This document shows positions 23,208 to 23,659 of a stretch of 64,000 bases of DNA, piece after piece. The position numbers and the translations under genes were made by a program. This DNA is from Rhodovulum visakhapatnamense (GTDB lineage Bacteria; Pseudomonadota; Alphaproteobacteria; Rhodobacterales; Rhodobacteraceae): assembly GCF_004365965.1 (NCBI RefSeq), contig NZ_SOEB01000005.1, forward strand, positions 124,001 through 188,000. Direction: 5' to 3'. Position 1 is the first letter of the stretch. Every line of letters begins with the position of its first letter. The notes beneath the pieces are model-generated. The model did not search any database. It was not told where the DNA came from and saw nothing but the letters and a program-made list of their open reading frames with translations.

Positions 23208-23240
23208 TTGCGCGCACGCCCATATGTTCTATCTTTGTTC
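23208..23240 (+). promoter_or_regulatory. SOS promoter with LexA box (GTTC-N7-GTTC)
   Basis: GTTC TATCTTT GTTC at 23226-23240 is an exact match to the direct-repeat LexA operator known from Rhodobacter and other alphaproteobacteria. It overlaps a plausible promoter: TTGCGC at 23208-23213, 16 bases, then TATCTT at 23230-23235. A start about 7 bases after the -10 would fall at the ATG at 23243, giving a leaderless message. The promoter parts are inferred; the operator match is direct. Confidence 0.75.
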
Positions 23241-23242
23241 CT

Positions 23243-23659
23243 ATGACCGCCCGACCCTACGACCCCGAAATGCCGCCCGCGCCGGACTGGCCCCGCCCGC
23301 CCCGGGCGATCCCGCACGGGCTGCTGGACCTGCCGCCCTCCGGGGCGCGGGTGACGGTGGCGGGGCTGGTGCTGGTGCGCCAGCGGCCGGGCACCGCCAA
23401 GGGCGTGATCTTCGTCACGCTGGAGGACGAAACCGGGGTCTGCAACGTGGTGGTCTGGGCCAAGGTGTTCGAGCGTTTCCGCCGGGCGGTGATCGCCGCG
23501 CGGCTGATGCGGGTAACGGGGCGCGTCCAGCGCGAGGCAGGCGTGACCCATGTGATCGCCGAGCATGTCGAGGACATCTCCGGGATGCTGGACGACCTGC
23601 TGCGCCCCGATCTGTACCGGGCGGGCGACCAGCCCTCCCAGGCCAGCCGCCCCGACTGA
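23243..23659 (+). CDS. Stand-alone OB-fold protein resembling the DnaE2 C-terminus
   Basis: 138-residue protein. Residues about 37-118 ([56 protein letters not shown]) match by eye the C-terminal tRNA_anti/OB domain of the error-prone polymerase DnaE2, without any polymerase, PHP or HhH part. The first 36 residues are Pro-rich. No other imuA/imuB/dnaE2 sequence flanks it. A LexA box ends 2 bases before the start codon and there is no Shine-Dalgarno sequence, so the message may be leaderless and DNA-damage induced. It could be a relic of a mutasome gene or a retained small SOS protein that binds nucleic acid. An alternative start is the ATG at 23270. Confidence 0.75.

Follow-up and report, generated by a model that had tools for sequence, protein, structure and literature searches.

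A separate, SOS-boxed gene for the OB domain of DnaE2 and its OB-less polymerase core in Rhodovulum visakhapatnamense and related genera

Why would a bacterial genome keep a gene for nothing more than the OB domain of an error-prone polymerase, with an SOS-type operator directly before its start codon? The question is raised by a locus of Rhodovulum visakhapatnamense which lies within the window analyzed here, i.e., the whole stretch of 64,000 nucleotides taken from contig NZ_SOEB01000005.1. A sequence-only reading of the locus had offered two answers: a remnant of a deleted imuA-imuB-dnaE2 cassette that kept its operator, or a small damage-induced protein acting in trans on a polymerase or on single-stranded DNA (ssDNA). 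We followed up both in the window, in the rest of the genome, and in the genomes of relatives.

The OB gene, its start region, and its product

The gene lies on the forward strand at positions 23243 to 23659, with its ATG at 23243 and its stop codon at 23657 to 23659, and encodes a protein of 138 amino acids (P0001), a detached C-terminal domain of DnaE2. An exact GTTC-N7-GTTC repeat, GTTCTATCTTTGTTC, is found on the same strand at 23226 to 23240 and ends two bases 5' of the ATG, so that box, start codon, and reading frame agree with what had been read from the sequence. The repeat corresponds to the operator consensus of alphaproteobacterial LexA. Two exact copies are seen in the 64-kb window, where 1.34 are expected; since the exact box alone is therefore not significant, its weight rests on its position and on the relatives described below. 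The other copy, on the minus strand at 32153 to 32167, falls within a serine dehydratase gene and is probably due to chance. In its available text, a D. shibae study (PMC6473078) names GTTC and GAAC as consensus motifs.

A -35-like element, TTGCGC, at 23208 to 23213 and a -10-like element, TATCTT, at 23230 to 23235, both on the forward strand, are separated by 16 nucleotides. The latter is located within the box and ends 7 nucleotides 5' of the ATG, which places the predicted transcription start at the ATG itself. A scan with the strict TTGACA/TATAAT consensus returned no promoter at the OB locus, and the window sequence 5' of the ATG contains no Shine-Dalgarno sequence. The neighbors are a 2Fe-2S ferredoxin gene (22805 to 23128, minus strand), divergent from the OB gene and found beside it in several of the fetched relatives, and a gene for a DegP-type protease with trypsin-like and PDZ domains (23731 to 25251, minus strand), convergent with it and kept as a neighbor in many of them. 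With these genes as its flanks, a longer, frame-shifted dnaE2 surrounding the OB gene, which the earlier reading had considered as a contrary outcome, is ruled out.

The assignment of P0001 to the C-terminal OB domain of DnaE2 was borne out by profile searches. Its best NCBIfam match is NF004225 (DnaE2), at positions 952 to 1038 of 1047, with 109.8 bits and an E value of 1.1e-31, a score which for P0001 alone is well below the whole-protein cutoff of 939 bits; lower scores were obtained for other polymerases, tRNA synthetases, and a small number of additional families. In the Pfam search, the OB domain PF01336 was above its cutoff at residues 37 to 112, two further matches remained below threshold, and no PHP, polymerase, finger, or HhH domain was found. 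The OB barrel, residues 36 to 112, is encoded at 23348 to 23578 on the forward strand. A structural model predicted from an alignment of P0001 with 39 of 48 parsed relatives (mean pLDDT of 81) shows a complete OB barrel, with strands at residues 36 to 111, together with a short helix and flexible ends, and a structure search against the PDB with this model returned generic OB folds, mostly those of tRNA synthetases. Across 40 aligned OB proteins, 34 columns are invariant.

Upstream of the barrel, codons 16 to 20 (23288 to 23302, forward strand) encode the motif WPRPP. Of the sequences parsed, 78 of 85 stand-alone proteins have a WPxPP-type motif before the OB domain, as opposed to 0 of 39 full-length DnaE2s; 36 of 160 proteins were not parsable, and L150, L154, and L159, which are contig-cut or fragments, were left out. 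The same stretch in many full-length DnaE2s reads like RPxLPGLTPHxxL, which places the start of the OB protein close to the end point of the core. The WPRPP segment may act as a docking element.

The OB-less DnaE2 core and the distribution of both halves

If the OB domain of a polymerase is encoded on its own, the remainder of that polymerase might be expected elsewhere. The sequence-only reading had proposed a search of the genome for imuA, imuB, and dnaE2, and in the 4.43-Mb, 80-contig assembly to which the window belongs (G000) this search was productive. Contig C21 encodes a DnaE2 core of 954 amino acids (P0002) which matches NF004225 at positions 6 to 938 of 1047 with 1242.1 bits, above the cutoff of 939, and contains polymerase, finger, and HhH_6 domains according to Pfam, with a PHP match below the cutoff; neither Pfam nor the NF004225 profile detected an OB domain in it. 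No significant similarity was found between P0001 and P0002, which together account for nearly the whole DnaE2 profile without overlapping. Since the chromosomal DnaE2 lacks the OB domain, the OB gene appears to be the counterpart of this core in a split polymerase. The SRDF[H/R] motif, reported at the C terminus of about 77% of DnaE2s (PMC3919608, available text), is missing from both halves.

The genome also encodes an ImuB homologue on C2 (P0003), which has a Pfam IMS match above the cutoff and is 42% identical to the protein encoded directly upstream of the full-length dnaE2 of L179. A probable imuA on C11 is the only match in this genome to the ImuA-like protein P0004; as it scores 33.4 bits against the ImuA model NF033429, far under the cutoff of 150, we use the name imuA provisionally. 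OB gene, core, imuB, and probable imuA thus lie on four contigs, each preceded by a LexA-type box: GAACATATAAAGAAC before the imuA candidate, GAACACAAAGAGAAC before imuB, and GAACAAAACGGGAAT, with one mismatch, before the core. The boxes before recA (GAACAAGAAGCGAAC) and lexA (GTTCTAGACATGTTC) are of the same type, and by their agreement with the consensus all of them are putative LexA sites. Since the genome retains a core, imuB, and a probable imuA, and since the OB frame is conserved, with purifying selection in close pairs (see below), we reject the suggestion that the locus is the remnant of a deleted cassette.

The same genome contains a second DnaE2, on C16 (L034, 3548 to 6931), which is full length, with both the OB domain and an SRDFH tail, and to whose C-terminal region P0001 is 56% identical; the split enzyme may therefore be partly redundant there. 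This full-length dnaE2 sits downstream of transposase genes. In another genome, G035, a full-length cassette occurs alongside the split system, on a contig that matches the 126-kb plasmid of D. shibae. Mobile full-length copies of dnaE2 may enter genomes which have the split one.

We then looked at how the two halves are distributed. A sample of 295 genomes from the family, with each genus represented once, was searched with P0001, the DnaE2 profile, and P0002, and a core was called OB-less if the OB match of the genome lay in a different, short frame or if there was no OB match; because P0002 itself has no OB domain, the end of a P0002 match alone is no proof of a shortened DnaE2. Among the matches listed, 124 genomes have a stand-alone OB gene, 121 an OB-less core, and 121 a full-length DnaE2. 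According to this first classification, again among the matches listed, 117 of the 121 genomes whose core is OB-less also have the separate OB gene, and 117 of the 119 genomes with full-length DnaE2 only do not. Re-examination of 59 genomes which were unclassified or odd added weak and fragmented cases; the matches listed then give an OB-less core in 129 genomes and the separate OB gene in 124 of these, tallies which overstate the number of events since the genera of one family share ancestry. The stand-alone count does not include G009, G178, and G091, where the OB match is short and lies at the end of a contig. An ImuB homologue was found in 116 of 117 split genomes by a search with P0003 (E≤1e-25), or in 119 of 124 with the weak cases, and a match to the ImuA-like P0004, often weak (E≤0.001), in all 50 genomes searched, 32 of them split.

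The exceptions are few. An OB-less core without an OB gene being found occurs in G044, G064, G098, G162, and G180, whose assemblies comprise approximately 100 to 490 contigs, while an OB gene without an OB-less core occurs in four genomes: G051, G061, which is fragmented, and G237 and G292, where the separate OB gene is found together with a full-length DnaE2. The OB gene of G051 (L194, 6394 to 6942; an assembly of 7 contigs) stands alone and is preceded by a box, and no DnaE2 core was found in that genome.

These distributions bear on two other readings of the locus. The OB-less core could work alone, as OB-lacking DnaE homologues may, with the OB protein serving a different partner, for which ImuB, the beta clamp, and a full-length DnaE2 would be candidates. 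The available text of the survey of Timinskas et al. 2014 (PMC3919608) describes some DnaE3 and several DnaE2 proteins as devoid of an OB domain, and the five genomes with a core and no detected OB gene would be in line with this. Nevertheless, the near-strict co-occurrence of the OB gene with OB-less cores, and its scarcity where DnaE2 is full length only, make this arrangement unlikely. We regard as somewhat less probable still that P0001 is a free, damage-induced protein binding ssDNA or RNA, which borrowed the OB domain of DnaE2 and acts independently of that polymerase. Its complete predicted barrel, the generic OB folds retrieved by the structure search, and the OB gene of G051 would suit such a protein, whereas a gene which, among the matches listed, accompanies the OB-less core in 124 of 129 genomes and is lacking in 117 of the 119 genomes with full-length DnaE2 only tracks the missing domain, which is not expected of a free binder. 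Of the trans-acting protein proposed earlier, the part that concerned action on a polymerase is supported, with the OB-less core as the candidate partner; a generic ssDNA binder has become unlikely. Our preferred reading, which on these sequence comparisons we consider very probable, is that the gene supplies the OB domain of DnaE2 (ImuC) as a separate, SOS-boxed, and probably leaderless subunit which reassembles with the core.

In order to see whether the split reaches beyond the family, OB matches were sought in 290 genomes sampled across the class, of which five belong to the family. Outside the family, among the matches listed, the OB domain lies in frames of approximately 1,000 amino acids or more, with nine exceptions in frames well under that length (G336, G410, G439, G462, G506, G507, G514, G520, and G579). 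Four of these were rejected as instances of the split: G514 has a broken dnaE2 with the core piece adjoining, the frames of G579 and G439 are cut by the ends of their contigs, and in G336 dnaE2 occupies two frames at a single locus.

Thirty-six OB-less cores were fetched and read through to the stop codon. Among the 35 printed, 32 end 15 to 62 residues past a common HPxx[LF][LI]R segment, with tails that are mostly unrelated, while in L072, L081, and L222 only a later HPR motif is visible. The C termini of these three cores and of L224 carry HPRNVR-like motifs similar to a portion of the DnaE2 tail, an appearance that would fit the loss of an OB domain preceding this tail.

Operators, selection, and history in relatives

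The weight given to the box depends on its recurrence. A table of 90 distinct stand-alone OB loci was compiled, leaving out identical OB sequences as well as L150, L154, and L159. An exact box occurs within 330 nucleotides upstream in 83 of the 90, and in 72 it lies 1 to 5 nucleotides before an ATG. None of these 72 loci contains GGAG, GAGG, or AGGA in the 18 nucleotides before the ATG, so that the lack of a Shine-Dalgarno sequence noticed in the window extends to the relatives. The promoter-like elements proposed for the window recur likewise: TTGN is found 16 to 20 nucleotides before the box in 64 of the 72, and the spacer of the box mostly reads TATNTTT, which points to a -10-like element inside the operator. 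The simplest reading would be a -10 element embedded in the operator and transcription predicted to start at the ATG.

When the contigs of relatives were scanned, 80 of 103 relatives were kept, of which 50 (L085 to L134) have stand-alone OB genes; the exact box lies upstream in 46 of the 50, and an ATG follows it by 1 to 5 nucleotides in 42. Among the 80, another three short frames are truncated by contig ends or are fragments, and the 27 full-length genes show no exact box in front of their OB part. No exact box was found within 330 nucleotides at L006, L012, L015, L095, L109, and L119, whose frame is conserved, and the link with LexA may be lost at these six loci; a seventh, L195, has an exact box further upstream. 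For the OB-less cores, a box with at most one mismatch is located within 120 nucleotides upstream in 26 of 28 parsed cases, six of them exact, in contrast with 12 of 112 control stretches inside genes (8 of the 36 cores were left out as their start was not parsable). The core operator is mostly a one-mismatch box approximately 30 nucleotides before the start, whereas that of the OB gene is usually perfect and placed over the -10 element.

The frame itself is conserved. In the 21 pairs of OB genes with dS below 0.3, dN/dS, a comparison which the earlier reading had called for, ranges from 0 to 0.21, with 0.04 for the window gene and that of Rhodovulum kholense (L085), values which show purifying selection in close pairs; over the 1,814 pairs with dS below 1 the median is 0.335, and single pairs are higher. 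That both halves are decaying relics, a DnaE2 inactivated by loss of its OB domain and an OB gene persisting by inertia, seems highly improbable to us, since the low dN/dS in close pairs, the 34 invariant columns in 40 OB proteins, the retention by the core of its polymerase, finger, and HhH_6 domains with a score above the DnaE2 cutoff, and the operators conserved at both loci all stand against it, whatever may be drawn in its favor from the higher dN/dS of more distant pairs, from genomes with only one half, and from the non-essentiality of dnaE2 in genetic studies cited by the available text of PMC3919608.

The history of the split was examined in two trees. In the core tree (FastTree, 106 rows; the cut L159 and the duplicates L169 to L176, L185, and L187 were left out), all 36 OB-less cores fall into one group of 39 with a support of 0.868, whose three full-length members are G004 and G276, near the base, and G292, inside. 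In the OB tree, which comprises 163 rows after leaving out identical sequences and is weakly supported, 78 stand-alone OB domains group with one full-length OB and 11 form another group, while L195 stands apart, beside full-length OB domains, so that the stand-alone OB domains do not form one clade. The full-length dnaE2 of G276 (L189, 6087 to 9440) has an exact LexA-type box near its start and adjoins degP, where split genomes keep the OB gene, and possibly represents the unsplit arrangement. In G292 (L186) the core groups with split cores and the attached OB domain with distant full-length DnaE2s, giving the appearance of a foreign OB domain joined to a split core. G194 (L193, 4627 to 9370) has core and OB genes separated by approximately 1 kb, with an exact box before either gene, and an OB protein which keeps the SRDFH tail; it could be an intermediate or an independent split. 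The stand-alone OB of G083 keeps part of that tail. The patterns of these four genomes are compatible with one split followed by re-joining, or with more than one split. Core and OB distances in 19 genomes correlate with a mirror-tree r of 0.921, a value which shared descent alone could give.

Proposed mechanism and relation to known systems

That DnaE2 is split and that the split is conserved is evident from the sequences themselves. From them we further infer how the halves may work. In a large part of the Rhodobacter/Roseobacter-type family, dnaE2 would have been divided in the linker that connects the helix-hairpin-helix region with the OB domain, so that catalytic core and OB domain would be made from different places with a LexA-type box before each. 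Upon DNA damage, LexA would leave the box overlapping the -10 element, transcription would start at or near the ATG, and the resulting leaderless mRNA would be translated. The OB protein would then join the OB-less core, and together with ImuB and ImuA a complete translesion polymerase, capable of lesion bypass, would be rebuilt. Since core and OB genes carry different operators, one may also ask if the split serves as a regulatory device, with the core made early or at a basal level and inactive, and the OB protein acting as a damage-gated license to a mutagenic polymerase; we put this forward as a tentative extension which is rather doubtful at present.

If the reassembly of core and OB protein is correct, a C-family translesion polymerase occurs in nature as two separately expressed proteins, and does so across much of a large and ecologically important bacterial family. 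Such a polymerase is easily overlooked, given the very small size of the gene for its OB half. It would also provide a natural test of the role of the OB domain in DnaE-type polymerases, the halves being open to expression, deletion, and mixing without an engineered cut.

We found no report of a separate OB gene in the literature searched, with supplements and most subscription journals lying outside that search. The available text of the D. shibae papers PMC6473078 and PMC9426580 does not mention one, the latter mentioning a plasmid imuA-imuB-dnaE2 cassette; there is nothing on it in that of PMC5627055, and a term search of PMC6511836, as available, gave no match. According to the accessible part of PMC10421592, an earlier model has ImuB contacting DnaE2 by unknown mechanisms. 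Several DnaE2s without an OB domain were described by Timinskas et al. 2014, whose available text does not mention a separate OB gene (PMC3919608), and the split may explain these proteins. A parallel is the split ImuB, iPolY plus ImuB-C, of DnaE2X systems in a 2026 survey (PMC12926913), where another mutasome component is divided into two proteins; there, however, it is ImuB and not DnaE2 that is divided, a split DnaE2 not being described in the available text. With respect to DnaE2/ImuC as represented by NF004225, P0001 is homologous to the C-terminal OB domain and P0002 exceeds the family cutoff, but core and OB are here separate genes at separate loci and the SRDF[H/R] tail is gone from both. 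As for the ImuA-ImuB-DnaE2 cassette, the imuB homologue, the core, the OB gene, and the probable imuA are all present with their LexA-type boxes, whereas in R. visakhapatnamense they are scattered over four contigs and DnaE2 consists of two gene products.
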